IMG/VR virus record: IMGVR_UViG_3300045125_000158
Location: 62,001 to 126,000 of that record
Source of the DNA: a virus
Strand: one strand, 5' to 3'
DNA length: 64,000 nt
The translations under genes and the position numbers were made by a program. The stretch's first letter is position 1; the number at the start of each line of letters is the position of its first letter. This document shows, piece by piece, positions 38,670 through 64,000 of this stretch. Under the pieces are notes generated by a model. The model searched no databases. It was not told the DNA's origin and saw only the letters and a list, made by a program, of their open reading frames with translations.

Positions 38670-38674
38670 ATATA

Positions 38675-42125: not shown

Positions 42126-42133
42126 TATTTATA
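42126..42133 (-). promoter_or_regulatory. Second T4-type late promoter-like box
   Basis: A second exact TATAAATA on the minus strand in the same gap upstream of fibre gene 2, followed downstream by the first copy. No other gene or RNA is visible in the gap. Confidence 0.4.
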
Positions 42134-42190
42134 CTTTATACTATAGAAGAAATAAAACATTATTTACAAGAAAAAATAATAAAATAATTA

Positions 42191-42490: not shown

Positions 42491-43615
42491 AATACCCTCG
42501 GGTCGATGATGCGATTTCCCAACAACACCATGCTGTAATGACTGATGGCTACTGCTCGACTTCCGGTAGACCATCCATTGGTTGTGGTATTTTCAAGTGT
42601 TGGTTGACATCTTCCACCTTGAATACCTTCAAATAAATTACCCCATTCGTTTGGGATTGTGGTTGCTGCAAGATTTTGCTGTCCCGGTGACGACGAGTTG
42701 GCACTGTAAGTCAACACAACTCGATAACTTTTGCCAGCCTTGAGAACAAATGGTCTCGGGAACCAAACCGCCGATTGATTTCGATTGTCGGTACTGCAAC
42801 TCACTTGATACAGCGGAGTGCCACGAGGACCTTGACTACTATCAAAGATTTCTACGCCACTCCATGCTGATGTACTGCCAACGCCCACTCCTCGCACTTC
42901 AACATCCGTTTCAAGTTCGGTGATATACATGCCACGTTTTTGAGTGGTGCTACCCGGTGTACCACCCGAACAATTCACCATACCACGAAATGTTCCGTCG
43001 CTAAAACCCAACACGCCAACAGTACCAGCGACTGTGAGAGTGCCTGCTGTTGCGAAACCGTTAGCAGTTGTGACTTGTCCCCACCATCGGTTTTCTGCTC
43101 CACCCAACGTACCCATATATCCACCGTTTGTTTGAAACACACGATAATAGTTGGTAGCATTACCTGCTGCATCGCCAACAACAATGTAATAGACTGTGTT
43201 GGCAGTCATTGAAACTGAAGATGTAAATGTCACTCGGTTCCAACTGTTTGCTGTAGGAGTATGAGATTGACTGGTGATGAGCGTACCCGGAAGATTGTTT
43301 GTTACTGTTGAATTGCGAACTTCAATCGTAAGTGCTCCAGTCGGACTTCCAGTATTTGCTCCGGTGCAATACCAGAAATCGGTAAGAACACAATCTTTTT
43401 GCGGCATGAACTTTATGGCTGCGACAGAGCCACTAACTCCGAAACTATAAGCAGTTGTAAGAGTTGCTGGTGACGCTCCGCCCGTACTATAACCGCCAAA
43501 TACAACGCCATTGTGTGGCATGTCGTTGAAGTTCATCGTACGAGGCAATCTACCTCGTCGCAGAAACAGTCCGCTATTTACTTTTACCGAACCCGTCGTA
43601 ATAACCTCGGTTCAT
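42487..43615 (-). CDS. Beta-rich virion or fibre protein, one frameshift at the start
   Basis: AAGGAG precedes ATG 43615. The reading MNRGYYDG breaks after a few codons, and one base over continues SVKVNSGLFLRRGRLPRTMN into the long frame. The 375-residue product is beta-rich. It has a jelly-roll-like segment, FWYCTGANTGSPTGALTIEV then TANTVYYIVVGDAAGNATNY, found in extracellular and fibre proteins. A second such region reads SAWSGVEIFDSSQGPRGTPL then FVLKAGKSYRVVLTYSANSS. Codon use is more GC-rich than the flanking fibre genes. It is likely a virion or receptor-binding protein. Confidence 0.65.
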
Positions 43616-43624
43616 GGCGGCTCC

Positions 43625-44043
43625 TTAGAAGTTCATGGCGATGCTTGTCACGTTCCAGACTTCGCTATTATGAGTATTGACTTCAACAACGTCACCGCTT
43701 GCCAAAGGAAGACCTTCGAGGCCATTCACTAGCGTCATGAGAGGTGCGAGATATTGAATTTCAGCACTTGCAAGCGTGCCCGATGGGGTGACAGCGGCTG
43801 TAGTCACCTCACCCATCAAACGACGAGTACCACCCGATGGAGTAAGCCAAAAACGAACCATTCCTGCGGTTGTGGTTCCGGTGGCTTTGCATTTGCTCCA
43901 ACAAAAATTCCGCCGTCTGTGCCTGCCGTATAGAGCGTCGTGAGTTGGCTTGGGGCTGTAAGAGACGTACTGCCAGTGCCAGTTGTAGCAACAGCATTTG
44001 TTTTTGGTGTAAGACCGAATATTGGACTTGTATTTGCTGCCAT
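43625..44043 (-). CDS. Small virion-like protein, one frameshift
   Basis: It starts MAANTSPIFGLTPKTNAVAT at ATG 44043, 16 bases past the end of fibre gene 1. A break near 43850 after AKPPEPQPQ leads to MVRFWLTPSGGTRRLMGEVT in the next frame and an end at NVTSIAMNF. Joined length is about 139 residues. The composition (Thr, Gly, Ala; beta-prone) suits a decoration or fibre-associated protein. Homologues of this type often sit near phage fibre genes; the function is not established here. Confidence 0.6.
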
Positions 44044-44058
44044 GTTTGTTTTCCTTTA

Positions 44059-47000
44059 TTATCTGAAACCACGATATGCGTAAATTTTGGCTGCCGCAGC
44101 AATGACAGGAGACGAAGAAGCTGCAGTACCGCTAAAGCCTGAAGTGCCTGAATAGCCACTATATCCTGATATGCCTGAATATCCGCTATAACCGCTGTTT
44201 CCTGAATAACCAGAGTAACCTGACATGCCAGAATAACCAGAATAACCAGAATAACCTGAAGTACCTCCTCCTCCACCGCCCGTACCACTGTAACCGCTGT
44301 ACCCGCTATCTCCAGCTCGGGTAAAACTAACTTCATAAATATCATATGTAGGCGACCCTCCATTAGATACGTTAGTGACAAAAGAATGCAAAGTGATTTG
44401 TGTATCCAGAGGCGTTAGTTATATTAAAGAATGAAAATTTTGTTTGATCAAATCTATTTACAAAATTTAAACTACCTTTACTGAATTAGTGCTATCATCC
44501 CAAGTTGATAGCCAGCCTGATAGGTTTCTATTCAAATAATCAGTCTTATTTATAACTATCCAAGTTGGTGTCGTGAGATTTCCAGTACTAGTAGTGAAAA
44601 ATGTACTGCCGGGATCGTCTGATGGATTCAAAACAAGGCTATCGCTAAATTCATAAAGTGTGGTATTAGCACCTAAGCCTTTATATCCACTGTAACCAGA
44701 ATTTCCTGAATATCCACTGTACCCGCTGCGTCCGGAATAACCAGAATAACCACTGAAACCCGAAATTCCACTATAACCCGAATATCCGCTAAAGCCTGAA
44801 ACACCACTATAACCTGAGTAACCACTAAATCCACTTATTCCTGAATAACCACTATATCCGCTAAATCCTGAAATTCCTGAATATCCAGAATATCCACTGA
44901 ATCCTGACGGCCCACTATAGCCCGAATAGCCACTTCTGCCACTATAACCCGAATATCCACTAAATCCTGATATGCCTGAATATCCTGAATACCCACTAAA
45001 GCCTGAAATACCAGAATATCCTGAATAACCACTAAACCCACTTATTCCTGAATAACCACTATATCCGCTAAAGCCAGAAATACCTGAATAACCACTATAG
45101 CCACTGAATCCTGAAGAGCCACTGTATCCAGAATAACCACTAAAACCTGATACGCCACTATAAGCTGAATAACCACTAAAATCCGCTTATACCTGAATAG
45201 CCACTATATCCACTAAATCCAGATATACCTGAGTAGCCACTATAACCGCTAAACCCTGATATTCCTGAGTAACCAGAATATCCACTAAAACTCACTTATG
45301 CCACTATAACCAGAGTAACCAGCTAAATCCACTAATTCCTGAATAACCAGAGTATCCACTAAAACCCGAAATGCCTGAATATCCTGAATAACCACTGAAT
45401 CTGAAGGTCCACTAACCAGAATATCCACTGAAACCTGATAGGCCTGAATATCCAGAATAACCACTGAATCCACTGATGCCTGAATATCCAGAATAACCGG
45501 ATCTGCCTGAATATCCACTATATCCGCTGAAGCCTGATATTCCAGAATAACCCGAATAACCACTAAACCCTGAGATTCCTGAATATCCACTGTAACCACT
45601 GAATCCTGAAATTCCTGAATATGCAGAGTACCCACTAAGTCCTGAAACACCGCTGTAGGCGGAATAACTTCACTTAATCCCAGATGTTCCTAGAATAGCC
45701 TGGACTAGCCACTAGAGCCCTGAAATTCCTGAATAGCCCAGAATCATCCTTTGAGGCCTGATGGCCAAGAATAACCCGAATAACTTTCACTGAGCCTGAC
45801 AAGGTTCACTGAATACTCCACCGTAACCACTAAATCCCTTGAAATTCCTGAATATGCGATGGTACCACCAAATCCTGACAGCACCGCTGTAAGCGGAATA
45901 TTCCCACCAATCAGATGTTACCTGAATAACACTGAACCAGCCACTAAAGCCTGAAATTCCTGAATAACCAGAATATCCGCTGAATCCATGATATTCCAGA
46001 ATAGCCTGAATATCCACTGAATCCAGAAATACCACTATAACCTGAATATCCGCTGAATCCTGATATTCCAGAATAGCCTGAATATCCACTGAATCCAGAA
46101 ATACCACTATAACCTGAATATCCGCTGAAGCCTGATATTCCAGAATAACCCGAATAACCACTTCTTCCACTATAACCAGAATACCCGCTATCTCCAGCTC
46201 TTGTAAAGCTTACTTCATAAATACCATACGTTCCTGTTGATACGTTTGCATTTGCAGTATTAGTGACCCATACAGTTGAAGTGATTTGTATAACCAGACA
46301 CTGCTGTTATATTGAAGAAGAGAACTTAGTTTGATCATCACGATAAACAACATTAAGACTACCTTCAATTGGATTGGTACTAGATCCCCAAGTAGCTAAC
46401 CAACCTGATAAATTTCTATTCAAATAATCAGTATTGCTTATAGAAATCCATGTTGGATTCGAAAACAAACCTGTGTTTGGGTTAATTAAAGTACTTCCTG
46501 GATTTTGACTGGGATCTACAAAAATAATATCAGTAAATTCATATAAAGTTGTATTTGCACCTAAGCCTTTATATCCACTATAGCCGGAAACGCCAGAATA
46601 TCCACTATAACCACTTCTACCACTATATCCTGAATAGCCGCTGAAGCCTGAAATTCCAGAATATCCTGAATAACCACTGAGGCCGCTTATACCCGAATAT
46701 CCGCTATATCCGCTAAAACCAGAAATACCTGAATAACCACTATAACCACTAAATCCCGAAGAACCCTGTATCCAGAATAACCACTAAAACCTGATACTCC
46801 ACTATAAGCCGAATATCCACTAAATCCGCTTATACCTGAATAGCCACTGTAGCCACTAAATCCGCTTATACCTGAATAGCCACTGTAGCCACTAAATCCG
46901 CTTATACCTGAATAGCCACTGTAGCCACTAAATCCAGATATACCTGAATAGCCACTGTAACCGCTAAACCCTGATATTCCTGAATATCCACTGTATCCAC

Positions 47001-50000
47001 TAAATCCTGAAATTCCTGAGTATGCAGAATATCCACTAAATCCTGAAATTCCAGAATAGCCACTATACCCGCTGAAACCTGATATGCCTGAGTAACCGCT
47101 ATAACCGCTAAAGCCCGATATACCTGAATATCCTGAATATCCACTAAATCCAGAAATTCCTGAATAGCCAGAATAACCGCTATAACCTGAAATACCACTA
47201 TATCCAGAGTAACCGCTTATTCCGCTGTATCCTGAATATCCGCTAAAGCCAGAAATTCCACTATAGCCTGAATAGCCACTAAATCCCGATACACCAGAAT
47301 AACCACTATAACCACTACGACCACTATAGCCCGAATATCCGCTATCGCCAGCTCTTGTGAAACTTACTTCGTAGACATCATAATTAGCTGTTCCAACATT
47401 AGCATTTGCTGTGTTAGTAACCCATACAGTGAAGTGATTTGTATACCCTGAAACTGCTGTTATATTAAAGAATGAGAATGTGGTTTGATCACTACGTAAT
47501 ACAAAATTAAGACTACCTTCAACTGAATTTGTACTTGCACCCCAAGTTGCTAGCCAGCCAGAAAGGTTTCTATTTAGATAGTCAGTTTTACTTATAGAGA
47601 TCCATGTTGGATTCGAGAGAAGACCTGTACTTGGGACAAAAAGTTGACTACCAGGATCGGTTGTTGGATCAAATGAGAGAGTGTCTGAAAGATACCATAA
47701 GCTTGTATTAGCACCAAGACCTTTATAGCCACTATAACCAGAAAATCCAGAATACCCACTAAATCCAGAGACACCAGAATAAGCAGAGTATCCTGATCTG
47801 CCAGAATATCCTGAATACCCGCTGAATCCAGACAGTCCTGAATAGCCACTATAACCACCTAAATCCTGAAATTCCTGAATATCCAGAGTATCCACTAAAT
47901 CCACTTATACCTGAATAGCCACTATACCCACTCAATCCTGATATTCCACTATATGCTGAATAACCACTAATTCCACTTATGCCTGAATAACCACTATATC
48001 CACTAAATCCAGATATACCTGAATAGCCACTATAACCGCTAAACCCTGATATTCCTGAGTAACCAGAATATCCACTAAAACCACTTATGCCAGAATAGCC
48101 ACTATATCCGCTAAATCCACTCGGTCCTGAATAGCCTGAATAACCACTGAATCCTGAAGGTCCACTGTAACCAGAATATCCACTGAAACCTGATAGGCCT
48201 GAATATCCACTATAACCACTAAATCCTGATATTCCAGAATAACCTGAATAACCACTGAATCCACTGATGCCTGAATATCCAGAATAACCGGATCTGCCTG
48301 AATATCCACTATATCCGCTGAAGCCTGATATTCCAGAATATCCTGAATAACCACTAGATCCAGCAACGCCAGAGTACCCAGAATAGCCGCTAGTACCGCT
48401 ATAACCAGAATATCCGCTATCGCCAGCTCTTGTATAACTTACTTCATAAATACCATATGTCGGTGTTCCAACATTAGCATTTGCAGTATTAGTAACCCAT
48501 ACAGTAAAGTGATTTGCATACCCAGACACTGCTGTTATATTAAAGAAAGAGAACTTAGTTTGATCATCACGATAAACAACATTAAGACTACCTTCAATTG
48601 GATTTGTACTAGATCCCCAAGTAGCTAACCAACCTGACAAATTCCTATTTAAATAGTCAGTTTTGCTTATAGAAATCCATGTTGGATTCGAAAACAAACC
48701 TGTGTTTGGGTTGATAAAAGTACTTCCTGGATCAGTGCTTGGATCTACAAAGAAATTATCAGTAAATTCATATAATGTTGTATTAGCACCTAAACCTTTG
48801 TAACCGCTATATCCACTAAATCCGCTATAGCCACTTCTTCCTGAATATCCTGAATATGCACTGTAACCGGAAATGCCTGAATATCCAGAATAGCCACTAA
48901 CGCCTGAAATTCCTGAATAGCCACTATAACCGCTAAATCCAGATATTCCACTATATCCTGAATAGCCGCTAAATCCAGATATACCAGAATAGCCACTATA
49001 TCCGCTAAATCCACTCGGTCCTGAATAGCCTGAATACCCGCTAAAACCTGATAATCCCGAGTATCCACTATATCCACTTCTACCTGAATAGCCTGAATAT
49101 CCAGATGTACCAGATTCCCCATATGCAACTAATTCTGCACAAAAGTAGGTGCCTGTTGAATCAGATGTACCGCCATATTGAGCTTTTTGTGTTGAATCCG
49201 TATAGGCAGTAAAATCTATATAATCTGTAGAACCATTCATGTAAATGAGCCTAGACGCATTTACGCTGTTTCCCGTAGATGTAAATAGTGGGCTTTGACT
49301 AATAGAAATTGTATTATTATTTTTTCTTATCTGTATATTATTTTGACCAACAGTAGTAGCTGCAGCATCCCACCATATATTTAATAGCACCTGATAATAA
49401 CCGGCGACAGTTGGAGTGAACTTATAATTAACCCCATCCCACCAATTCAGCGGATCAACAAAGTCAACAAATTGTAAAACCCTATCGGCACTTGCTGTTA
49501 TTGTTTGATCCGCAGTAAGCTTGCCAACCACTACATAATTACTTGGAGCTAAAGTTGAAGCTGCACCTGAATAACCACTTATTCCTGAATAGCCACTGTA
49601 ACCAGAAATGCCGCTGTAACCACTGTAACCTGATATCCCTGAATAACCACTATAACCAGAAATGCCGCTATAACCAGAATATCCCGACAACCCTAAGCCA
49701 CTATAACCGCTATATCCACTAAACCCACTTATACCACTATATCCAGAATAACCACTAGATCCTGATATGCCAGAGTATCCGGAATAGCCGCTAGTACCGC
49801 TATAGCCAGAATATCCACTATCTCCAGCTCTTGTATAACTTACTTCATATATATCATAAGTTGGTGAACCACCGTTCGCCGTGTTTGTAACCAAACAGCA
49901 AAATGATTCGTATAACCTGAAACTGCTGTAATATTAAAGAACGAAAACTTTGTCTGATCAAAACGATTTACAAAATTAAGGCTGCCTTCAATTGGATTTG

Positions 50001-52570
50001 TACTCGCACCCCAAGTTGCTAGCCAGCCAGAAAGGTTTCGATTTAAATAATCGGTCTTGTTTATAACTATCCAGCTTGGAGATGTTAGATTTCCAGTACT
50101 AGTAGTGAAAAATGTACCGCCGGGATCGTCTGATGGATTTAAAACAAGGCTATCAGTGAATTCATAAAGTGTGGTATTAGCACCTAAACCTTTATATCCA
50201 CTAAATCCACTAAATCCACTATAACCACTTCTACCAGAGTATGCGGAATAACCAGACAGCCCACTATATGCTGAGTAGCCAGATAAACCTGAAAATCCAG
50301 AATAACCACTCGATCCAGAAACGCCTGAGTATGCAGAATATCCGCTTAATCCTGAAAAACCAGAATAGCCACTTAAACCTGAATATGCAGAATATCCACT
50401 TAGCCCTATATAACCACTATAACCACTTAATCCTATGTAACCGCTATATCCTGAAACTCCAGAGCCACTAAATCCCGAATATCCACTAAATCCGCTAGTA
50501 CCGCTATAACCAGAATATCCACTATCTCCAGTTCTTGTGAAACTTACTTCATAAATACCATATGTCGGTGTTCCAACATTAGCATTTGCAGTATTAGTAA
50601 CCCATACAGTAAAGTGATTTGCATACCCAGACACTGCTGTTATATTAAAGAAAGAGAACTTAGTTTGATCATCACGATAAACAACATTAAGACTACCTTC
50701 AATTGGATTTGTACTAGATCCCCAAGTAGCTAACCAACCTGACAAATTCCTATTTAAATAGTCAGTTTTGCTTATAGAAATCCATGTTGGATTCGAAAAC
50801 AAACCTGTGTTTGGGTTGATAAAAGTACTTCCTGGATCAGTGCTTGGATCTACAAAGAAATATATCAGTAAATTCATATAATGTTGTATTAACACCTGAA
50901 GCCTTCTGTAACCGCTATAGCCGGAAACGCCAGAATAACCACTATAGCCACTAATCCTATGTAACCGCTATATCCTGAAACTCCAGAGCCACTAAATCCA
51001 GAATAACCACTATAACCACTACGACCACTATAGCCAGAATATCCACTATCGCCAGCTCTTGTGTATAACTTACTTCATATATATCATATGTTGGCGAACC
51101 ACCGTTTGCTATGTTTGTAACCCAAACAGCAAAGTGATTCGTATAACCTGAAACTGCTGTAATATTGAAGAACGAAAATTTTGTTTGATCAAAACGATTT
51201 ACAAAATTAAGGCTGCCTTCAATTGGATTTGTACTGGCTCCCCATGTAGCTAACCAACCTGACAAATTCCTATTCAAATAATCAATCTTGTTTAGAACTA
51301 TCCAAGATGGATTTGTGAAGTGTCGAATTATTGGTGGTTAAATAGGTACTACCAGGATCATCTGATGGATTTAAAACACTTACGTCAGTAAATTCGTATA
51401 GTGTTGTATTCGCACCGATACCTTTATATCCACTATATCCAGAAGTACCAAAATAACCACTATAACCGCTTAAATCCATATAACCGCTATATCCTGAAAC
51501 TCCAGAACCACTAAATCCTGAATATCCACTCTATGCAGAATAGCCACTAGGACCAGAATAACCGCTATATCCACTAGCAGAAGAATAACCACTATACCCA
51601 CTAAATGAGGAAAAACCAGAATATCCACTCAATCCCAAACCACTATAACCAGAATAACCACTGAATGACCAAAACCAGAATATCCTGAATATCCACTGGC
51701 TCCATTTGATCCAATAACTCCATTTATACCAGAAAATCCACTAAATCCTGAATATCCACTATATCCGCTCTGTGTGTACATTACTTGCTGTGCAGTAACA
51801 ATTACTGAAGGAATATCTGGTCTTACGGGATTTGTTTTTACCAGTTTCAGCAAGCAACTGCATAGCAGAGTCAGGACTCGACCATGCTAATTCAATATAA
51901 TCACCTGCATTCAACTCCAGCATCAAATTAAGAGCTGCTAGCACCTTTTCCATTATTGGCATGTACCATGATAATTGGTGTTGCTATTTGATATGTCACT
52001 ATTCATTCAAACGAAACCAAATATCAAAATCATCATCACCAGCGTCTGTTTTGTACAGCTGCATCGAAAATTGAATATTATAAACGCCTGGATATTGAAA
52101 AGTTAATTTAGTATCTATCAACAATACTGACACCATGACTATCTGGATCAGTAGAACCAATATGAATAATATTTCTATATTGAGTTGCCTTCAGAATATC
52201 CACTATTCGTTTGTGTATTTGTATCGTAGAAACGACTCCCCAATACCCTAAAACGCCACCAGTACCAGATGGCTCCACTATAGCCACTATAACCACTAAA
52301 CCAGAATATCCACCGTCCACTATGGCTACTATAACCACTCAATCCTGAATAACCAGACACACCAGTGTAGCCACTGTAACCGGAATATCCACTAACTGAG
52401 CTGCCGCCCGAAGTTCCATTTGCCTCTATGTAAGTTACTCTACTGGCTAATTCATCAAGAGCTAACTGTACGGTACCAGGAAGTGTTGTCCAATTAATAA
52501 CCGTCGTAGGCAGAAATGTAATTTCACTTGCCTTTAGATATCTGAGCAAATTACGCGGTACATATGGCAT
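44059..52570 (-). CDS. Collagen-like (Gly-X-Ser)n fibre protein 1, about 2,830 residues
   Basis: It starts MPYVPRNLLRYLKASEITFL at ATG 52570. The region LPGTVQLALDELASRVTYIE is a common phage fibre N-terminal pattern. A C1q-like part (51750-52230) follows. Then come (Gly-X-Ser)n tracts in a 12-residue superrepeat, GYS-GYS-GIS-GFS, separating at least six copies of a beta module: LNRNLSGWLATWGASTNPIE, FSFFNITAVSGYTNHFAVWV, YDIYEVSFTRAGDSG. A second C1q-like domain lies at 49118-49566. The last residues are VIAAAAKIYAYRGFR. Many breaks are present, densest at 45650-46150, where the sequence itself looks unreliable. Confidence 0.78.
45650..46150 (-). other. Unusually disrupted stretch of fibre gene 1
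   Basis: The (Gly-X-Ser)n coding pattern is recognisable but broken every few tens of bases, with inserted bases and non-repeat words. Flanking tracts keep one frame for hundreds of bases. It looks like poor consensus in a repeat, or decay. Confidence 0.6.
48436..48755 (-). repeat. 320-base module copy A in fibre gene 1
   Basis: This stretch is identical by eye to 50541-50860. It encodes one beta module between (Gly-X-Ser)n tracts, including DDQTKFSFFNITAVSGYANH. Confidence 0.85.
49118..49566 (-). other. C1q/TNF-like globular domain inside fibre 1
   Basis: About 145 residues between two (Gly-X-Ser)n tracts. The pattern is YVVVGKLTADQTITASADRV, FTPTVAGYYQVLLNIWWDAA, IQIRKNNNTISISQSP and IYMNGSTDYIDFTAYTDST, ending YFCAELVAYG. 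This strand order and the GYYQV and FCAELVAYG strands match C1q-like jelly rolls. In animals such domains cap collagen stalks and trimerise; here it is internal, with further repeats after it. Confidence 0.65.
50541..50860 (-). repeat. 320-base module copy B in fibre gene 1
   Basis: Identical by eye to 48436-48755, spaced 2,105 bases apart, while other copies of the module (about 44310-44690, 46190-46580, 47340-47740, 49850-50200, 51050-51480) have diverged. Confidence 0.85.
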
Positions 52571-52589
52571 TTAAACTATTAATTCCATT

Positions 52590-53419
52590 TCATTTTTTTA
52601 TTGCAAATTTACCTATTTCGTTATATAATATTTGTGGATTTTTAACATCAATTCCTTTACGACGCAGACTTTGGTATAACAAAATTCCAACCCCAGCAAC
52701 TATTGCTGCATTGATACTGCTTCCAGACATTTCAACAAATTGCGAATTTATATAAGTAGTTTCAAAATTTTGTTTTGGCAAAATAAGGCCTTTAAATTTA
52801 TTATTATTTTTAATTGTTTGTATACCACTAAATTTTGTAGAATAACCAATTGAGAAAACTTCATCATATCTTGCTGGATACTGGACATCTCGGGTTTTAA
52901 TCTCACAATTACCTGCTGCTGCAAACATTGCATATTCCAGCACGATGGGCCTTTTTATTACATCATGTAATCCATCATGCTCAGTTTGACACCAAACGAC
53001 ATTAATATCATATCAACATCTCTTACAATAGACCATAATATTGCTTCTATAACTGATTCTATCGTATTTACAGAATAATTGTCTTGTATTATTTTTGCAA
53101 AATAAAGATCAGTTTCAGTCGCCAATCCTGTAATTGCACTTTTATTATTTGCTGCAATGATTCCAGTTACTGCAGTAGAATGACCAAATGTGTCATAGAC
53201 ATTTTCAGTATCTGTAAAATTTTTACATTTATCTTCGTTGCATCGAATATCAATGTGTGACGGAAAGCCACTGTCAATTACGCATAGGCGAACGTGCTTG
53301 CCATCACCTTGTATGTTTTCAAATCCAAAATAGCTTGCCGAATACTGCGTTCTACGCAATACTTTACTTCGCACTTTGCTGATATCTATCTTGCTCTGTT
53401 TTATTTGGCCATAGTCCAT
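52590..53419 (-). CDS. Subtilisin-like serine protease (S8), one frameshift
   Basis: All three catalytic motifs are visible: Asp in VRLCVIDSGFPSHID, His in TFGHSTAVTGIIAANNKS, Ser in EMSGSSINAAIVAG. The oxyanion Asn is in FAAAGN. The two halves are joined by a shift near 52950-52970, between LMSFGVKLS and GLHDVIKRPIVLEYAMF. About 276 residues from ATG 53419 (AGGA upstream); a TTG at 53449 is also possible. No signal peptide is seen, so it would act in the host cytoplasm or be packaged in the virion. It lies directly before fibre gene 1, so it may process fibres or other virion proteins; that is inference. Confidence 0.87.
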
Positions 53420-54155
53420 TGATGATCCTGTAGTGATTTCCCTTGCCAAAAAATTCTATATTATAATTCAAATTTTTAATATCCAAAAACTCTACATTTT
53501 TTCGCAAACAAATACCTGCATGCAAAGTAAACAAATCATCTGTTAGAATATTTAGAACATCTATTTATTTCATCAATTTTTTTACATAAATCATTTTTAT
53601 TCGGCAAATAATAAACTTGCGACATATTTAATATAAGATTATCTTTTATATATTGTCGCAAATTTTTATCAACTATAGAAACGCCAGTATTTGTTTTGAC
53701 TGTTTTGTTTTTAGGATAATAACCAAGACTGTATATCCTTCTCCACGCCAGGTTTGATTTGCTAGTTTAAATAATATTTGAAAATAGGCACTTATCTGAT
53801 TAAGGCCTTGTTATAGAATATTTCATAAAATTCATTTGCATTTTGATCTAACGCAACAAACATCACCGTTTTTTTCAATAAACCCATATTTAAGGCTTGC
53901 TTTGTAAATTACTGCAAAAATTAGATGCTTGTATTGTTGGCGTAAAATTAATTACAATATCGAAATCATGCACCGCACTCGTATAGCCACTTATCACGTT
54001 AATATTCTTATTAAATCTTAACAAAAGATAACTTTGCTCTTCAACAAAAAGATTAATATCACAGCTCTGGATATAATCTTTTGTAAACACTTAATTAGAC
54101 TAGTGGACGCTAGGACAAACCACGGTTGCTCAAAATTTAGAATAGCAATTTTCAT
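53364..54155 (-). CDS. GT9-like glycosyltransferase, heavily frameshifted
   Basis: The start MKIAILNFEQPWFVLASTSL at ATG 54155 overlaps the preceding stop as ATGA. Pieces in different frames read DINLFVEEQSYLLLRFNKNI, VHDFDIVINFTPTIQ, LAWRRIYSLGYYPKNKTV, VSIVDKNLRQYIKDN and ILTDDLFTLHAGICLRKNVE. The order matches heptosyltransferase-like (GT9) proteins. At least four breaks occur, more than in neighbours of this size, so it could be a real pseudogene. The end is uncertain and may overlap the protease start. Confidence 0.5.
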
Positions 54156-54709
54156 GATCTATTTCTCTTAAAATTTGAAGCCTTACCAATGTCAATTTCT
54201 ATAGGATCATCACCTAGAGTCTTCTCTACTGATTTATTGTGCCTTTTTGACTTTGCTATGTTTTCAACGTCTTTTCTGGCTTCAAGTTGCGATTTCTGAT
54301 ATTCATTGATTATTTCCATATCACCACTTTTAATCGCGTCTTTGACCGATCTGCAATTATTAACGAAATTTTCTGGCAAATCGTCAATACATTTGAAATC
54401 ATAAATACCTGAAAACAAATAATCTTTGCCCATGTAGTTAATATACATTTTTGTTTTCTTCGTATTATGCAAATACAAAATTCCATTTTCTATTTCAGTC
54501 TGGTCTCCAAGATAATTTTGCGTCAAAAAATTATCTTCAATCAATTGCACAATTTCATCGCCACCTGCTTCTATGTACTCGGTAACATATATGACTTCTT
54601 TGTTTGAAATCTCATCATGTATGCTCTGTAAATCATTGATATCATATATTTTGACATCTTGATCGCATATTGTTACTGTTTTTTGTTTTGGATTTATCAA
54701 AACAATCAC
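54152..54709 (-). CDS. Hypothetical protein
   Basis: 185 residues with no break. The GTG start overlaps the preceding glycosyltransferase stop as GTGA. It begins MIVLINPKQKTVTICDQDVK. A GDEIVQLIEDNFLTQNYLGD segment and a charged C-terminal helix (KSGDMEIINEYQKSQLEARK, KSVEKTLGDDPIEIDIGKA) follow. I do not recognise it. It sits between two glycosyltransferases in a coupled operon, so a role in the same process is possible. Confidence 0.6.
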   Translation of the reverse strand: MIVLINPKQKTVTICDQDVKIYDINDLQSIHDEISNKEVIYVTEYIEAGGDEIVQLIEDNFLTQNYLGDQTEIENGILYLHNTKKTKMYINYMGKDYLFSGIYDFKCIDDLPENFVNNCRSVKDAIKSGDMEIINEYQKSQLEARKDVENIAKSKRHNKSVEKTLGDDPIEIDIGKASNFKRNRS

Positions 54710-55869
54710 TGTGCAACTCCTGTTTTATATACATTATCTAGTTCTCTCTTTGCCCAAGCACCAACCACGTCACCCTGCAAATTATTTATTATAAACTTTT
54801 GTAAATGTATGTTTTTATTTTGTTGCATTTTATAGTTATTCACAAAATCACGTAATGCATCCGCAAAATTATCTGTAAAATTTTCACCTAATTTTGGGAA
54901 TTGATACTGATCCCAATAATAAACATCTGTAAAATTTTCTGAAATTTCTAACTCATCAATATCAACTAAATAGCTATTGTTTTCATCAAGAAAATCTCGC
55001 GGACCCCCATAATTTATTGTAATAACAGGCAAATCACACAAGAAGCCTCGCATAAAGGTAATCCGAAACCTTCACCACGACTTGTTAAAACAAATGCATC
55101 AAAAGCTGAGTAAAAACTTGGCATCATATATTCTGGTATATTTTTGTAAGTAATGTAAATGTGCGGATGTTCAGGATATCTTTTCAATATATCGTCTATT
55201 TGTTTTCTTATTTTATTTTGTTGCTTGATAGATTTTTCCGCAATAAGTACTACTAAACTGACATCATCTTTTTTATTAAAAGCTTTACAAAAACTATGCA
55301 ATAAAGCATCTGTTCCTTTTCTGTACCCAAAAGTTTGTACGCTAAGAAATTTAAAGCTTTTCAAAGCTGGCCTAGAAACCTACTGTATTTACAGTTTTCT
55401 TGTATAAATTACAATTTATAATTGGATGTACTACATCAATTGTTTTTTTGTAACCGCTATCTATAAATGATTGTTTGCAAAAATTACTAGTAACCCACAA
55501 TTTATCATAGGAATTTGCTATATCAATAAAATTCTGCGGCACTCTGTTTGTTTCTGCCGTCGTGTATAAAATATTATATGCCTTTTTTGTTTTTGCACTT
55601 TGCGTTGCGACTACACTATCTATCAATATCGCATCACTGCCCAAAGGTTTTCGCAATAGAGACAAAATTCTAGTTTCAACTTCGTTCAATGTATTTTGAT
55701 TGTTTACAGGCTCAATTGCTGTTACAGATTTATGACGATGTAGACAAAATGCTAAATTTCTATTAACCTTAGCGTAGCCCGTATTATCATAAAAATGTCC
55801 ACGCACTATGACTTCAGTATTTTTACCACTTTCAATTGGCGTAACTTCTTCTTGTTTTTCCATCTGCAT
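54706..55869 (-). CDS. GT4-family glycosyltransferase (GT-B), two frameshifts
   Basis: About 385 residues in three frames. The N-terminal domain (VIVRGHFYDNTGYAKVNRNL) has the pattern of GT4 phage and bacterial enzymes. After a shift near 55370 come FLSVQTFGYRKGTDALLHSF and the donor-binding FVLTSRGEGFGLPLCEA, the EX7E-type motif. After a shift near 55050 come DLPVITINYGGPRDFLD and a helical end. GT4 enzymes are retaining transferases using nucleotide sugars. The stop overlaps the next gene by four bases. Confidence 0.85.
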
Positions 55870-55874
55870 GTTGC

Positions 55875-56074
55875 TTATTTTAAACAGATTTTTTCAAGCC
55901 TATGATCGCCTATTTCTGTTATTTTAAATCCACCTAAGTGCACCATTTTTTGAAATGATCGACTTTTTGCACATAACAAAAATCAATATATTGCACAATA
56001 TCACCAAGATATGGAATTGATAAATCTATATCCTCAAGTTGTACAGAATTTCGGGTTTTGTTTATAAATTTCAT
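55875..56074 (-). CDS. Small hypothetical protein, frameshifted
   Basis: About 66 residues, MKFINKTRNSVQLEDIDLSI to the end HRLEKICLK, joined by one base near 55955 in an A-run (HFKK then MVHLGGFKITEIGD). The start follows the terminator of the previous gene; an upstream in-frame ATG at about 56092 abuts the T-run and is less likely. A compact alpha/beta protein of unknown role. Confidence 0.5.
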
Positions 56075-56092
56075 ATTCTTATATCGGCGCAT

Positions 56093-56140
56093 CAAAAAAC
56101 TCGCCAAAAATAACATCATACACAGATGTTTATGGCGAGT
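56093..56140 (-). terminator. Two-part hairpin terminator
   Basis: Outer arms ACTCGCCA and TGGCGAGT enclose inner arms AACATC and GATGTT. Six T follow on the minus strand. It lies 23 bases after the stop of the 55-residue gene. Confidence 0.8.
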
Positions 56141-56162
56141 ATTTTATTTATTGCCTAAATAA

Positions 56163-56333
56163 TTAAGATTGCTTCTCTTTAACATCCATCACGCATCTCT
56201 CAAATTTGTCAGTCTTCTTTGGACCTAATTTTGCATGGCAAACAGCCCATGGATTTGGATTCCATTCCTTTTTCTTGCCTTTCTTGCCTTTTTTCTTTGC
56301 TTCTTTATACGCTGCTGTAATTATTCTTTTCAT
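56163..56333 (-). CDS. Small basic phage protein
   Basis: 56 codons from ATG 56333 with AAGGGGAG upstream, which rules out an ATG 11 codons earlier. A lysine-rich N-terminus (YKEAKKKGKKGKKKEWNPNP) leads into WAVCHAKLGPKKTDKFERCV, a Cys-containing pattern seen in small uncharacterised phage proteins. It probably binds nucleic acid or acts as a virion-associated peptide; the function is unknown. Confidence 0.65.
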   Translation of the reverse strand: MKRIITAAYKEAKKKGKKGKKKEWNPNPWAVCHAKLGPKKTDKFERCVMDVKEKQS

Positions 56334-56343
56334 ATAGCTCCCC

Positions 56344-56706
56344 TTATGCCTTAAAAAATGGTGCAAGTATAGCCATATCTTTTGCAGTCATCTTGTTGTC
56401 GCCAAGAGAATCTACCGAAATAGGCTCTACCATCAATTCTACAGTCTGCGACAAGAGTCCTTCAAGCTCATTTTGAAATGTAGCCATATTTTCTGGCTTC
56501 ACTCTTATCACATTTTCTGTTTGTAGCAGGTCGCCATATTTCTTAACAAGATTCTGTCTGTCTATCTCATATGCATCAAATTTTTGACGCAATTTCCCCG
56601 CTGCCAACGATAGCATATATGCGTCTTTTGCTTGCAACTTAATACTCAACAAGATATCTATACTGTCAACCATAGGAACTAATTCTTTAAGCGTAAATTT
56701 AATCAT
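56344..56706 (-). CDS. Hypothetical helical phage protein
   Basis: 120 residues, MIKFTLKELVPMVDSIDILL to TAKDMAILAPFFKA, almost entirely helical with Lys/Glu/Asp heptad-like spacing (LSLAAGKLRQKFDAYEIDRQ). It is the first gene after the capsid terminator and has no frameshift. Possibly a structural or chaperone-like protein; no family recognised. Confidence 0.65.
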   Translation of the reverse strand: MIKFTLKELVPMVDSIDILLSIKLQAKDAYMLSLAAGKLRQKFDAYEIDRQNLVKKYGDLLQTENVIRVKPENMATFQNELEGLLSQTVELMVEPISVDSLGDNKMTAKDMAILAPFFKA

Positions 56707-56741
56707 GTTTTACTCCATTTATTTATCTTTATCGACATCTT

Positions 56742-56780
56742 TTATCTAAAAATAGAAGGGTTGCCCTTTCGAGCAACCCT
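56742..56780 (-). terminator. Rho-independent terminator after the capsid gene
   Basis: Eight-base arms AGGGTTGC and GCAACCCT with an eight-base loop. TCTATTTTTAG follows on the minus strand. It begins 34 bases past the capsid stop. Confidence 0.85.
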
Positions 56781-56813
56781 CTATTCAATCCATATTTTAA
56801 CCAAATCCTAAGA

Positions 56814-59777
56814 TTAGGTTACTGAACCAGTCAACTGTACGGCAGAGATGGCGTAATCGTTGATGATTGCAACGCCAACCTCTTCGTAGATGACCCAACC
56901 AAGACGAAGCTTCTTTGGATCATCAGCAGGAAGAACTGTGATGTCCTGACGAATTGGGAATGCGCCCAACCGTGTCAGGAGATGCCAAGCAAAGAACATA
57001 GTTCGATGGCATCTTGCTTGATACGTGAAGGTCAGCAGTCCACAAGTGTCCGTAGAGACCAGTCGTGAGAATTTCACGAGTAGTAGCCTCATCGAAGAAG
57101 CGATACGAAGCAGTTGTTCCACCCGAACCGTTGAACAAACGAACATCCGAATAACGGAAGGCGTTCATTACAACCTTGGTGCAAACCAAGTCGTGCTGCT
57201 CGATCTCGCGATAAGCATAGTTGAGGCTCTGTGGAGTAAGAGGAGCCGCGCTAGATGTAGTCTGATCACCACGAAGTGCGTTGATGCAGGCTGTGAAAAT
57301 CTGCTCGTCCTCTTCCTTCTGAATGGCCTCCTTGGCTTTTATTTGCATGTGTTAATAACATTTTATTGTTATGTCCCTTCAGGGAACTCTATATATCGCT
57401 ATATAGTTCAGACTTTATCTTCCGTATGGCATATCAATTCAGTGGACAGAAACGGGACCGCATAAAGTCGTTGAGGATCATTGGTAAAAAGCCCTTCAAA
57501 TTTGTAGCGCATACTAGGATGCACCCAAGGGAGTATAATTTGTGCAAATTTTTTACTCGTTTTGTTACTGAAAAAAACTACATACTGATTTTCTGCTCTT
57601 TTTTGTGGCTTGCAATAAATTGCTAGGTTTTGATAAAACCATTCACAAATTGATGCAACTTCATCATATCTAAAACAATTCGTATGTAGTGCTAATCCTT
57701 CATTTTTACATCTGCTACCATCATCTGAAACCAAAATGCCAAACTTATTGGAGTAAGTTTATCAAGATGTTTTCTTGTAATTGTCTTTTGTTTAGCTACA
57801 TAAACAAGCTTGTAAACTTCGTCAAAATCAGGATGTCCTCCTGTAGAAAATATGTACCTCTGTCCATCTTTTCTATTTGTAGAAGTAATCTGATCACTGT
57901 AGCAGAAGTTTTTCCATATGTTGTATTTTAGTTCTATATATTCTTTTTGCGAAGTACTGTGACAGCACATGAGTCTAGCGTGCCTTGCAGTCTCAAATAA
58001 ATATAAGCAATCATCACCTAAAATACTTCCATACAATATTTCTTTCTGCACCTGCGAAATATGGGTTGGATATCTACGTTCATAATCGAGATAATACAAC
58101 TAATCCATATTTTTTTTGTAGACGCTGTATACACGATCTTGATACCTTATATATTTTTGCTATTTCTTTTGCGTCAATTTTTTCTTCAAACATTAGACGA
58201 GATAAAGCATCTCTGCTCAAATTATCTTTTGCCTTCATTTTACCAATTCTTTCCTGCTGATTGTCTTGTTTCAACCGACTTGTTTTTATCCTTATCGGCC
58301 TATCTTGGTCGTTGCCAAGTTCAAGATGTTCCAGCATATGGCGGTCTTACGTACCCAAATATTTATCCAGCACGGTCCACAATGTAGAAACGACGAGCTT
58401 TGATCTCGCTAAGACGGATGGTTGGGTTAGCTGCGATCTCCCAAGTTGGGACGAGGATTTCCTCACCCTCTTGGATTTGATCGGGTACTGCACCACGACG
58501 AGAAACGACGAATGCAATAGCTGCAACGTCACGCTCGTAGCGAGCGAGAGCGCCTTGTGGCAATTCCTTGCGTGGTCATCCCTTTCGGGAGCCGTGGGCT
58601 ATACCATCATCTCTCAATGAACGAGAGAGTCGGACATATTAGCATCAAAACATTTCAGATTTGACGCTCCGCTCATTTTTGAGCAAGTCTCTACGGGGTT
58701 ATCAAAAAGTTTATTTTTATAAGCCATGCATGGAACTGTATGTGGTTTTATAATTTCGCACACTTTCATGTACTCTTTATTATTAACTCGTATGATTTGC
58801 TTATTACTTGCCGCATTTATGGCGTATGTATCAATTTTAAATGAATCGAAAAGCATCGACCTTAAAACTTGTACATCAGAAGCCGTAAATCCTTCAGTAT
58901 GAAAAGATGCAAACCAAGAATTTCTACCATTTCTACACACACTGCCATCATCATAAAACCATGCTGCTAAACTTAGAGGAGATAAATTAAAATATGGTGC
59001 AATTTTTTTCCCATTTGGATAAAAGGTTTCACGTATATCATCAAAATCTTTATGTAATACCGAAGTTAAAACGCACGTTGGTTTAGTGCCATACGTTTTT
59101 GTTTTTGTATTATCAATAATCTTGATGTCTTGATATACCAAATTATCTAATATAGACTTCCTTCCATTGCAGATATTCAATTTGATCTATGGAATGTGTT
59201 TCAGAAAATCTGCATCCGTTCTTGCCTTCGTGATGACGATAGACTCCACCATCACCGAGCAAAGATCCGAATATCAAATCCTTCTGTTGCGCATCAAGAG
59301 ACTGCTCGTAGTAATACGAATACTCTCTTTTATGTCTTTTAATCTCAATTCCATTTCGTTTAAGAATCCTACCTATAACACTCTTGTCACATCCGTAAAT
59401 AGATGCAATTTGACGCAAAGTACGATTCATTTCTTTGTATAAAGAAATTACTTCGCTAGTGTTAATGTTAAGTTTCTTACTCATTACGATCCTCAAGAAC
59501 TTTTCTTAAACTTCCCTCGGGATTGCCTTGATAACACAAGTTATTTTAGGGTTCCCCGATATGAGTCCGATTTTTATTAAGACTCTCACGAGTCTAGGTG
59601 GACAAATTGCGTTAATCCACCATCAAAAGCTTACGACCTACTGCTTGATATTCAAGCGAACGACGGATTGGCTCGACCATCGCCTGCGCTAAAGCTGTAC
59701 GACCCTCGTCGGTCTCAAGCTGCCTGAGCGATGATCATTTCCTTCTGTTCATCAGTATATGATTTAGTTAGACTCAT
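56814..59777 (-). CDS. Major capsid protein gene, three exons with two group I introns
   Basis: Exon 1 is 59615-59777, exon 2 58369-58566, exon 3 56814-57345. Spliced, it reads MSLTKSYTDEQKEMIIAQ, then VEPIRRSLEYQAVGRKLLMV, D|ELPQGALARYERD, NPTIRLSEIKARRFYIVDRA|QIKAKEAIQKEEDEQ and RLGWVIYEEVGVAIINDYAI. This matches a well-known major capsid family of contractile-tailed phages (HK97 fold). About 296 residues. Both junctions fall between codons. Exon 1 (near 59715) and exon 3 (near 56935) each carry one extra base; exon 2 is intact. AAGGAG precedes the ATG. The coat assembles into hexamers and pentamers around the genome. Confidence 0.9.
57346..58368 (-). ncRNA. Group I self-splicing intron 2 of the capsid gene
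   Basis: The exon end CGUGCU (58369-58374) pairs with GGUACG (58350-58355), with U.G at the splice site (P1). P3 is GACCGC (58341-58346) with GCGGUC (57457-57462). P7 is GACUUU (57465-57470) with AAAGUC (57411-57416); CAACGACUUUAUGCGG and AAGAUAAAGUC match the classic R and S elements. A P9-like hairpin lies at 57374-57385. The last intron base is G. Removal restores the frame. Confidence 0.9.
57408..58238 (-). CDS. LAGLIDADG homing endonuclease in capsid intron 2, frameshifted
   Basis: It starts MKAKDNLSRDALSRLMFEEK at ATG 58238. A helix-turn-helix (DAKEIAKIYKVSRSCIQRLQ) is followed, after a shift near 58090, by QVQKEILYGSILGDD (first LAGLIDADG helix). ISLAFWFQ then, after a shift near 57720, DDGSRCKNEG form the second. 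The end FAQIILPWVHPSMRYKFEGL matches the other two endonucleases here. About 275 residues. It would cut an intron-less capsid gene and so spread the intron. The reading frame overlaps the intron's P7 and P8 region, so its translation and intron folding compete. Confidence 0.88.
58567..59614 (-). ncRNA. Group I self-splicing intron 1 of the capsid gene
   Basis: The exon end GGUGGAU (59615-59621) pairs with GUCCACC (59597-59603), with U.G at the splice site. A P2 hairpin AGACUC-GUGA-GAGUCU lies at 59580-59595. P3 is UCGGAC (59565-59570) with GUCCGA (58630-58635). P7 is GCU(A)AUA with UAUAGC, with the usual bulged base. P9 is UCCC-GAAA-GGGA (58579-58590). The last base is G. Removal joins VD to ELPQG in frame. 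Confidence 0.9.
58614..59484 (-). CDS. LAGLIDADG homing endonuclease in capsid intron 1, frameshifted
   Basis: It starts MSKKLNINTSEVISLYKEMN at ATG 59484 after GAGG, with its own ribosome site inside the intron. A helix-turn-helix (TLRQIASIYGCDKSVIGRIL) precedes QQKDLIFGSLLGDGG. After a shift near 59160 come LSPLSLAAWFYDDGSV and the terminal IIKPHTVPCMAYKNKLF. About 290 residues. Same architecture as the intron 2 and the 2150-3142 enzymes but well diverged from both, so the introns were probably acquired separately. The last codons overlap the intron's 3' core. Confidence 0.88.
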
Positions 59778-59859
59778 TTTAAAACTCCTTAATTTTGTAT
59801 GTTACGGTTTTTATTTCCGTGACAATTATTTCCTAGATGAAATCTAAGACAATGCAGAA

Positions 59860-60490
59860 TTACAGCTGCATGATTAAGCTAATGAAGCCCGAACCATTGA
59901 AGGACTTCAAAGCCATCGAGTAATCCGAAGAAGAGCCACCGTCAACGCCGGGGACGCCGCTTGGATACTGAGTAATACCACTGGTAAGAATACCAATTTG
60001 TGATGCGTTAGAGGTTGTTGAGCAGGTGATCAAACCAGCGTTAGCCGTAGTATAGGCTGCGGTTGGGTTGGCATACACCTTAGCACCAACCGTGAAAGTA
60101 TCGGTGCTGAGGAACATGTCGGTATAGAATTCACCACCCGTGATGTAAACAGTCAACAAACCAGAACCAAGAGTTTCGTTGAAATAATCTGAAACTCTGT
60201 TCTGCGTTGACTTCTTGCTTCCGCCTGAGCTTATAAGAACGCTGTCTTGATAAGCGGTGTGACCAGCAGAAAGCTGCAAGCGAATCGCCAGCAAGTCCTA
60301 TTGGGAGGATTGTTGGTGATGCGTTGCTTGCCGTAGCATGCTTAACGTAGCCTGCGCTTGTCAAGCCTACGACTTCGCCGGCGTAAACACCGTAGGTTGC
60401 ATCTGAGCTACCTGCGTTGATCAAAGCAACATCGGCTGGATCAACTGGGAACATTGCGACTGCTGTGTGATACTTGGGAATAAGTGCCAT
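59860..60490 (-). CDS. Head decoration-like or virion protein, one frameshift
   Basis: It starts MALIPKYHTAVAMFPVDPAD. Near 60285 the frame changes and continues AIRLQLSAGHTAYQDSVLIS through FTVGAKVYANPTAAYTTANA to FNGSGFISLIMQL. About 209 residues, Gly/Ser/Thr-rich and beta-prone. It lies directly upstream of the capsid gene, where many phages have a decoration or head-fibre protein, and its pattern (GEVVGLTSAGYVK; GAKVYANPTAAY) fits such proteins. An exact role cannot be proven from sequence. Confidence 0.7.
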
Positions 60491-60517
60491 AATAAATCTC
60501 CTTAAAATTACCTAAAA

Positions 60518-62761
60518 TTACTTGAACCTAACATTGTTATTCTTCAACTCAAAATTTGGATCGTCCTGAGCGAGTTCGTTGCTCTTATTCAACGTGAATA
60601 AGCTTTGTATTGAATCTTTCAATTCTTGTGCAACTTTTCTCTGATTACTACGCTCAGATATAACTAAAGGCTTTTCTGTGCCCTTCGCAACAGTATCGAA
60701 TCCTTTCTTGGAAGCACCAAAGAGTGTTGTCTCCAAATCTTTCAAATCACTAGCCTCATAGCGTGATAACTTTTCGATTTCTGATGCAAGCTTATCTAAA
60801 GTTATCAATCCCGCCTTGAGCTTACGACCTGCAAGCTTTGTAGCAGCCTCTTTTTTGCCGCCAAGGATTCAGCATCGCCACTAGCAATGACTGTTCCTTT
60901 AATGTCTGTTTGCTTTTCTGGAGCATTCTTCTCATTCTTGTCAAACTTAGAATTCATTCCGCCGCCAACTGGAATGCTTGGAGCATCCTTGCCAGCCTTG
61001 GGTACATCCTTGATTGTATCCTCTCGTGCCCCATCAATTTGCTATCCTCTGTCTTGCCTATATCGCAGGATTCAGAAGGCTTTATTGGGTTTCCGCTATC
61101 AGGAAGATCTTTGTCTGCTGAATGCTTACCAATATCACCATGCTCGGAAACTGGCTTGGCATCGTTAATCTTCTTGTCTGATGCTGTCTTGATATTCTTC
61201 ATAATCTGTTCGGCAAGAACGGTCGTGCGGGCTTTGCTGGAAGCAGCATGATTTCCTGCACCTCTGTTTCCTCCTGTCATCTCGTGAGTTTTCTCACTTG
61301 TATAACCAAGCTCTTTTTCATGACCCATTTCGCCACCGCCAGCATCAAAAGCAGGTTTATTAGTTACAACCTCAAGACCCGCATCTGCTTTCGCCACCCA
61401 TCAGCGCCTTTTTACCTGCCTCAGGCACTTTGGGCTTATTCATTTCGAACTTTCTTCATGACCCATAGTCTTGTGATCCTGCACCTTACCAGCAGCTGTC
61501 TTGCACGTTCTTGAGAGTTACTTCTTTGCTTGCTTGATTTGTTTGCCCTGATTAGCAAGAACTTGAAGTACATTACTGAGATCCAAATTTATTTCTCCGG
61601 TACTAGAAATCTTGCCTTTTCTGAAAACTTGTGCCACAGAAGCCTCCTTTTTAGCTTGCTCTGTATCCTCTCCCTCATCTTCATCTCCCGTTTTCTTGAG
61701 GAAATCGGGTTTTGAATCATGAGCGTGATCATGATCTGCTGGCTCGTCTTTCTTATCATCATGCTCATGTTCATCATGCTCATGTTCCTCGCTCTCATGC
61801 TCTTCGTGCTCTTCTTCCTTGTCATGATCTTTATTGGTGTGACCTTTTGGCTTGTCACCATCATCATCGCCATCGTCCTCACCACACTCCTCGCATTCCT
61901 CATCCTCTGCATCTTCACTACTCATAGCAATTTCTTTCTCAGTTGTTGCAGAAGGAGGCATCCCAACATCAGTTGCTGCAGTTTCGGCTTCTGCAGATTC
62001 AAGTGCTGCTTCGCCCGATGGCAAATTGCCTACAGCCTCTTCAATTCCTTCAGTTGCTTCTGCTGGCGTTTCAATTGCCTCGCCAACTGGCATTTCTTCA
62101 CTCATAGGCTCGTGATGAGCTTCCTCTGATGGCTTCTCGCCCATAGCCTTACCCCCATAGCCTTATCCAATGCTGCATCGAGATTCTCAAGAACATTTTG
62201 TGGCAACTCAATTGTTACCATATCGCCCTCTGGTAAACCCTCAGGCTTGGCAAATGGATCTACTTCTTTCATATCCATTACGTCGGCTTCATCAGAAGCC
62301 TCTGGCATGGGAACCTCACCAACTGGGGCTTCTGGCTCTTCTTTGATTGGAGACATTTCCTCAATTGCATCAGCAGCGCGATCCTGAACTTCAGCGTATT
62401 TATTCTTCAACTGATCACAAACTATGCACGCTTCTTTCATGCTGAACTGTGCAGTCTTAACAAAATCTTCTACACAGTTAACCATCTGATCTTCAACAGA
62501 CCAAATCGAAGCTATCTTGATTGCAAGATCGTTGGCGTAAACTCCAGCTGTCGCAAGCTTCTTGCAAGCACATTCAGCAAGTGGCTTGCCCTCGCAAGGA
62601 CCACTCATCGCAAGTGCATTCTCTCCAAATTTACGTGCAATCTTTTCGATGCATGTTTCGATTGGGAACTTGCTACCAAAACCAGCAGTCTTCTGCAATC
62701 CGGCTATAACATTATCTCTAGATGCGGTCTTAACCGTCTTGAACAAGCCTTTCTCGTTCAT
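60518..62761 (-). CDS. Acidic scaffold-like protein, several frameshifts
   Basis: About 745 residues if joined. Regions in order are as follows. A Cys-rich helical part (ETCIEKIARKFGENALAMSG; CEGKPLAECACKKLATAG). A Pro/Glu-rich acidic part (PEAPVGEVPMPEASDEADVM). A stretch near 61740-61830 where His and Asp/Glu alternate (EHEHDEHEHDDKKDEPADHD). A Lys-rich part (RTTVLAEQIMKNIKTASDKK). A helical end (ELKDSIQSLFTLNKSNELAQ). Breaks fall near 62150, 61510, 61390 and 60850-61030. Position before the head genes, acidity and low complexity suggest an assembly scaffold or core protein. Confidence 0.55.
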
Positions 62762-64000
62762 GGCAAGAATTGTTTGCCCTTCTCAGTTAAAAGCATGCCA
62801 TCAAAATCTTGTTCCGCAATTCCATGAGCTGAAAGTGCAGCGTTAAAAGATGCTTTTCTGCGATTGCATGTATCACACTCTCTTGTAAGAGGTATGGCAT
62901 CATAACGCCATTCAGCAAATACAGCCTTCTTGCCACCCTTATCAACGCCAGCTACATGCACCTCAAACTTTCTACCAGTATCTAGGCACATGAACGCATT
63001 ACCCGCAAGCTTCATAGTGCTGTTATTGCCTGTGTAAGGGCTAACTGCGCCAAGGCTCCAAGTTTTACCCTCAGCCTTAGCAGCCTCTTGCGCAACCTTA
63101 ATCATAGTGCTGTTGAGACGCGTCATAGCTGCAACAGGCATACTCTCTGGCTCCTTAGACTCTGGCATTGCAAAGCCTTCGCCCTTATCTCCCTCTTCTT
63201 CTTCTTCTCACCGGAATCTAGAACGCTTGGATACTTAGTTATTGAAATATTTACCTTAACATCAAACTCAGCCTTGCAATTATTGCAGCGGCACTTACCT
63301 TCAAGCACATCAACGTCGCTAGATCCGCATACTACGCAAACAGTTCCGGGTGGCTTGGGCTGCATATCGGTATCAGTTGCCTCATCTGCACCCTCCATTC
63401 CACCCATACCAGCTGCACCACCAGCGGCTGGAGCAGTAGACAAGGCCTCGGCCCCACCCATACCACCCGCACCCGCGTTCATATCAGCGCCGCCCATCAT
63501 GCCACCAGCTGCACCACCAGGAGCTGGAGTACCCATACCGCCAGCAGGACCGCCAAATTGTGCTTGCTTTAACATATTTTTCCTATTTTCTGAACGTGCT
63601 TTACGATTCATGCCAAACCTGTTCTCATAAGCTTCACCAAACTCTTCATCCATAGATTTCTCTTCCTCATCTGAAGAAACCGACATTTGTGCAACCTTGA
63701 ATTGCGATTTGATTGCACTTGCAAATGCTCGCTTCTCGCTATCGGAGCAAATCGCCGTTTCCTTGCAATCCATTTCGAATGTGCCATTCTCAGCATTAAT
63801 ATCAACATTAGCAATCACAAATGGCTTGTTAATATGAGACTTAGCGAAACGATAGAGAGCCTTCATAAAAGCGTTACGGTCAGATGGATCTACTGTGACA
63901 TCATCAGTCAAAGTTCCGCATACCTTGTAAAGACCATCATCTTCTTGTGAAGCTTCTACAACATCAGAATCTTCAACATTCTGCGATGCAGTCTTAAATT
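62758..64000 (-). CDS. Zinc-ribbon protein with Gly/Ala/Met-rich linker, N-terminus beyond window
   Basis: The frame enters from the right edge and continues past a shift near 63170. SQFKVAQMSVSSDEEEKSMD is followed by a Gly/Ala/Met/Pro-rich linker (63360-63560), then a zinc ribbon (VCVVCGSSDVDVLEGKCRCN followed by NCKAEF, two CxxC pairs). A Lys/Glu tract and a second domain (NSTMKLAGNAFMCLDTGRKF; ECDTCNRRKASFNAALSAHG with a further CxxC) follow. The stop overlaps the next gene's ATG, or the two are one protein. Probably involved in head assembly; function unknown. Confidence 0.55.

Follow-up and report, generated by a model that had tools for sequence, protein, structure and literature searches.

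How did the capsid gene of a giant-phage-like virus come to be interrupted twice within a distance of 198 bases? The window analysed here, a stretch of 64,000 nucleotides, comprises bases 62001-126000 of the 187,259-base IMG/VR virus record IMGVR_UViG_3300045125_000158, which represents a phage-G-like genome. Its major capsid protein (MCP) gene lies on the minus strand at 59777-56814, as do both insertions and the endonuclease genes that they contain. We considered that two independent mobile group I introns have entered this gene, that they would splice out and home by means of their own LAGLIDADG_2 endonucleases, and that the gene is a hotspot for such elements throughout the clade; comparative analysis makes this explanation highly probable.

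The capsid gene and its empty sites

Exon 1 (59615..59777) encodes codons 1-54 and ends in ...GGTGGAT, exon 2 (58369..58566) is exactly 198 nt long, in frame, and encodes residues 55-120, and exon 3 (56814..57345) encodes residues 121-296 and the stop codon. An alignment of the spliced protein to capsid families had been proposed in the initial annotation, and the product indeed matches phrog_2522, a phage major head protein family (E 8.9e-43), and is 48.9% identical to gp27 of Bacillus phage G. An IMG/VR search with exons 2 and 3 joined retrieved relatives at 86% identity without gaps. Four of the loci found, L009-L012, carry an uninterrupted MCP gene that has neither intron and is 85-86% identical over residues 1-242, across both junctions. 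When the spliced exons are aligned with L009-L015 and phage G, the empty sites are exact to the base: the junctions GAT|GAA and GCT|CAA fall on unbroken codons, and both insertions are in phase 0. The earlier reading that the capsid protein resumes at codon boundaries once each intron is removed is thus borne out, because the junctions match the uninterrupted genes to the base.

Structure of the two introns

Intron 1 (58567..59614, minus strand; 1048 nt) is inserted after MCP residue 54, at site B, and is a group I intron of IA-like type, with P7.1 and P7.2 present. Its P1 (59597..59621) pairs exon GGUGGAU (59621-59615) with guide GUCCACC (59603-59597) and places U.G at the splice site, and its P10 pairs GCAAUUU (59610-59604) with exon 2 GAAUUGC (58566-58560). 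P3 is formed by UCGGAC (5′ strand, 59565..59570) and GUCCGA (3′ strand, 58630-58635), and occurs as five sequence variants in five homologues, all of them paired. P7 is formed by G[A]GACU (5′ strand, 58686..58691) and AGCCC (3′ strand, 58596-58600), with an A.C mismatch at 58598, where the window has C and four relatives have U, giving A-U. This helix was first read as GCUA/UAGC, which was replaced by GACU/AGUC after the relatives had been aligned. The intron also has P4, P8, P9 and a terminal G, its upstream exon ends in U, and its endonuclease gene sits between P6 and P7. With that gene removed, the unconstrained fold has a z of -3.73 and recovers P1, P2, P3, P4, P7.1, P7.2 and P8.

Intron 2 (57346..58368, minus strand; 1023 nt) is inserted after residue 120, at site C2, and is a group I intron without P7.1/P7.2, therefore not of type IA. 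P1 (58350..58374) pairs exon CGUGCU (58374-58369) with guide GGUACG (58355-58350), again with U.G at the splice site, and P10 pairs UAUUUG (58361-58356) with exon 3 CAAAUA (57345-57340). P3 consists of GACCGC (5′ strand, 58341..58346) and GCGGUC (3′ strand, 57456-57461), P7 of GACUUU (5′ strand, 57464..57469) and AAAGUC (3′ strand, 57411-57416), and the P9 hairpin (57389..57406) of CUAUAU/AUAUAG; P4, P8 and a terminal G are present, and the upstream exon ends in U. The fold without the endonuclease gene gains modestly over shuffled sequences (z -1.76), and recovers P1, P3, P4, P5 and P9. Therefore, of the elements described in the initial annotation (P1 with U.G, P3, P7, P9 and the terminal G in both introns), all are present, but P7 of intron 1 has one mismatched pair.

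Covariation and covariance models

By splitting the MCP matches across all fetched loci, we found homologues of each intron at its own insertion site: L033, L049, L053 and L128 have an intron at site B, and L153 has one at site C2. In the site B helices P2-P9, 210 of 211 pairs are kept, compared with 79% when strands are swapped between sequences, the sole broken pair being the window's own A.C in P7; P2, P3, P7.1 and P8 each occur in four or five sequence variants. At site C2, all 127 pairs are formed in both intron 2 and the L153 intron; both sides have changed in 12 of them, including two in P7 (GACCAU/AUGGUC in L153). These helices were annotated by hand and chosen by eye, which biases the pair counts towards the model, and the independent check comes from covariance models built without the window. 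Model R1, made from the four site B 3′ domains, matches 58566-58707 (E 1.4e-35), its only significant match in the 187-kb record. Model R2, made from the C2 and A introns of L153 and the A intron of L038, matches 57389-57479 (E 2.6e-9; runner-up E 0.23), so that intron 2 is likewise the only significant match in the record.

The search with group I covariance models that the initial annotation had called for thus gave a divided result: the relatives-only models find both introns, but neither reaches the gathering score of Rfam RF00028, whether in the window or in the whole record, where the scan was empty. This score is a detection threshold rather than a biological defining feature. When RF00028 is applied to the 3′ domains alone, intron 2 scores 17.8 bits (E 0.0097 for 141 nt searched) and intron 1 has no match. 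By comparison, the L217 MCP gene contains, towards its 3′ end (5625-6350), two group I introns that lack an endonuclease gene, and these score 61.4 and 104.7 bits, above the cut-off of 50. The low scores in the window are therefore attributable, at least in part, to the internal endonuclease genes that interrupt the cores; P7.1/P7.2 and the P7 mismatch probably also contribute to the failure of intron 1. Scans for the P7/P3 patterns of both intron families matched no contigs beyond those that the MCP searches had already retrieved, so that these exact cores were found in no other IMG/VR contig, and a DNA-level search with the L049 intron gave only a weak 59-bp match in a named phage.

The endonucleases

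The endonuclease gene of intron 1 (58614..59484, minus strand), the end of which overlaps the intron core, encodes a helix-turn-helix-like N terminus and a LAGLIDADG_2 domain (GSLLGDGG, AAWFYDDGS), and has a frameshift near 59160. That of intron 2 (57408..58238, minus strand) encodes a LAGLIDADG_2 protein of a distinct lineage and appears to be frameshifted twice, near 57730 and 58090, so that its second LAGLIDADG motif is frameshifted in this record. Both enzymes score above the curated cut-off of PF03161 and have two LAGLIDADG-type motifs. Identity is 46-62% among enzymes of one site and about 23-33% between sites; because each enzyme is nearest to the same-site enzymes of relatives and far from those of other sites, the pair did not arise by a recent duplication of one intron. 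The earlier statement that two different LAGLIDADG enzymes inhabit the introns can accordingly be sharpened to two separate site-specific LAGLIDADG_2 lineages, with both genes frameshifted here. The related enzymes that are intact measure 277-306 aa. In L053 and L128, only 388 and 415 nt remain of the site B introns and most of the enzyme gene is gone, which is what the homing cycle predicts. When viral contigs were searched with the individual endonuclease fragments, one protein at a time, no relatives were returned; these were reached via the MCP. As both endonuclease genes and the MCP gene are frameshifted as sequenced, we make no claim of activity in this phage.

A third LAGLIDADG_2 protein, intact and 209 aa long (E 1.3e-31), is encoded on the minus strand at 2269-2898 of the window, near an HSP20-like gene. 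Its relatives occur in crAss-like Bacteroides and Acinetobacter phages; RF00028 and both intron models are without a match nearby, and the gene is probably free-standing. On the same strand, at 31003-50895, many large collagen-like tail-fibre genes lie together.

Insertion sites across relatives

We found seven distinct interruption points in the MCP, after residues 32 (A), 42, 54 (B), about 115 (C1), 120 (C2), 225 (D) and 273 (E). Several genes are interrupted more than once: L128 has three introns (at 42, B and C1), L153 two (A and C2) and L217 two (D and E). When the insertion at C1 is excised from L128, that at C2 from L153, or those at D and E from L217, a continuous exon 2-3 product of 235 aa results. 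The MCP is interrupted in about 9 of 97 distinct contigs, probably a lower bound, since the searches favour uninterrupted genes. Within five residues of the sites (A and C1 being placed only approximately, to a codon), mean conservation is 0.975, as against 0.839 at random positions (p 1.5e-4). The 66-residue stretch encoded by exon 2 ranks only 45th of 231 windows of 66 residues. The proposal that the middle exon is conserved, and so fits homing into essential sequence, should therefore be restated: exon 2 is moderately conserved, but the insertion points are near-invariant.

On an MCP tree (FastTree, Fitch count), the five carriers of the site B intron require five changes, the same number as with shuffled labels. 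Such scattered carriers are consistent with homing plus loss, although repeated loss alone might also produce this distribution. The MCP gene of this clade is apparently a homing-intron hotspot, and apparently an unreported one; the literature search, which covered open-licence papers and is no proof of novelty, found no report of a hotspot for this clade.

Some loci deserve mention in their own right. In L128 (2080-5030; IMG/VR phage 3300009514_000888), one of the three group I-type introns of the MCP gene has lost most of its enzyme gene. The site A introns (L153 2430-3700 and L038 3765-4935) encode enzymes of another family, which in L153 is LAGLIDADG_3-like, and the usual U is absent at their exon boundary, the position of which is approximate. 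In L090 (1-2196; LR745208.1 near 395-396 kb, from a 485-kb phage), an open frame of 1230 codons lies a short way downstream of the MCP gene and encodes two tandem units of helix-turn-helix plus LAGLIDADG_2 in one protein.

Proposed mechanism and alternative explanations

We propose that each intron folds on the transcript, where its guide forms P1 with the last bases of the upstream exon and P10 with the first bases of the downstream exon, and that guanosine-initiated splicing would then remove it and restore the MCP frame; the ends and the frame are given by the empty sites. When a relative with an intronless MCP gene co-infects, the LAGLIDADG_2 endonuclease of each intron is predicted to cut that gene at the near-invariant codons of insertion, and repair of the break would copy the intron in, as the empty sites, the site-specific enzyme lineages and the scattered distribution suggest. 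The central claim of the initial annotation, that the capsid gene carries two group I introns with homing endonucleases 198 bases apart, is upheld by the empty sites, the covariation, the covariance models and the homologous introns with intact enzymes.

Might these be real introns that have decayed, so that both the P7 mismatch and the frameshifts are genuine mutations and the elements, or even the whole gene, are dead? Such decay would fit the A.C pair in intron 1 and the frameshifts, which affect two exons as well as each endonuclease gene, and enzyme genes have been lost naturally from the site B introns of L053 and L128. However, the frame changes are not confined to the introns. Compared with all relatives, exons 1 and 3 each have one surplus base (near 59720, and in a GGG run near 56972), the enzyme genes have about three shifts together, and several further genes in window positions 50-64 kb are affected: 12 frame changes occur over 2654 residues aligned with L009 and 11 over 2401 residues aligned with L011, whereas the comparisons of L009 with L011 and of L009 with L010 show none. 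Frame changes in several genes of the window, and none between relatives, most likely represent sequencing indels, the simplest account; apart from them, conservation of the MCP protein is strong. We therefore regard decay as improbable and do not claim it. Independently of this question, the pervasive 1-nt frameshifts at 50000-64000 suggest an indel-rich, perhaps long-read, assembly, in which readings based on open reading frames need care. A chimeric assembly of unrelated intron-bearing fragments, conceivable in a metagenomic record with many indels, is very improbable, because other samples have yielded independent contigs with the same introns, inserted at identical bases, and the exon sequence fits one lineage.

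LAGLIDADG enzymes also occur in inteins, and relatives in this clade have PF03161 in long open frames, so that inteins or other in-frame protein insertions have to be weighed. Between the exons, however, stops occur in every frame, so no open frame runs through either element, and the enzymes have starts of their own; insertions at other sites in the clade are in phase 1, and the exon U, the terminal G, the P1 and P10 pairings and the covariation of the catalytic core are features of introns. This explanation can practically be set aside. Alternatively, the intron pair might also serve alternative splicing, in which the 198-nt exon, a multiple of three in length, is skipped, which would yield a shell protein still in frame but 66 residues shorter. 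Such skipping of an exon that lies between two phage introns has been documented in the terminase transcript of SIOphi (PMC11878797) and, as cited there, in Twort. The product would, however, lose a conserved 66-aa block and is encoded by none of the relatives examined, and we think such a role unlikely. The preferred explanation remains that of two mobile introns. More tentatively, the MCP gene may be a battlefield, in which enzymes that cut the capsid gene break the shell gene of co-infecting relatives to the gain of the carrier, a contest that might drive the accumulation of up to three introns per gene and the turnover between the seven sites.

A capsid gene needs very high expression late in infection, so two or three serial ribozymes would have to splice efficiently. 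Because the clade includes MCP genes with no intron, one, two or three, and introns with or without an enzyme gene, spread over seven mapped sites, the cycle of homing-intron gain and loss and intron-based competition between phages are directly testable. Annotation may also miss or truncate the capsid genes of this clade.

Comparison with known systems

The view that paired intron invasion of a capsid gene is rarely reported is fair, but has precedents in mycobacteriophage LittleE (PMC3706429) and in crAss-like phages (PMC7886860). In LittleE, a probable group I intron lies in the major capsid gene, and RT-PCR confirmed its splicing; as here, the enzyme is LAGLIDADG-related and the intron was recognised via an intronless relative, but the intron is single, the enzyme is on the opposite strand, and the phage is a siphovirus of an unrelated clade (PMC3706429). 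In the zeta-group crAss-like phage OLRF01000054, the MCP is in five fragments, and three of the four intervening segments encode group I-type intron domains; this phage belongs to another order, and the accessible sections of the source give no covariation or empty-site comparison (PMC7886860). The major capsid gene of Faustovirus E12 likewise contains group I introns, five in number, but this is a giant virus of amoebae that has spliceosome-like introns as well (PMC6247863).

Twort and the Bastillevirinae have genes that each contain two or three group I introns (PMC11878797 and its reference 34). These interrupt genes for DNA polymerase, terminase, reductase and others, and mostly encode HNH enzymes; one Bastillevirinae intron has a LAGLIDADG_2 enzyme, as here, and the word capsid is absent from that paper (PMC11878797). 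For PhiPA3, function has been tested: the endonuclease of the gp210 intron cuts the intronless allele of a co-infecting phage, which results in competition (PMC11620839). That enzyme is of the HNH family and the interrupted gene encodes RNA polymerase, unlike here, but in both cases a group I intron of a jumbo phage occupies an essential, conserved gene (PMC11620839).
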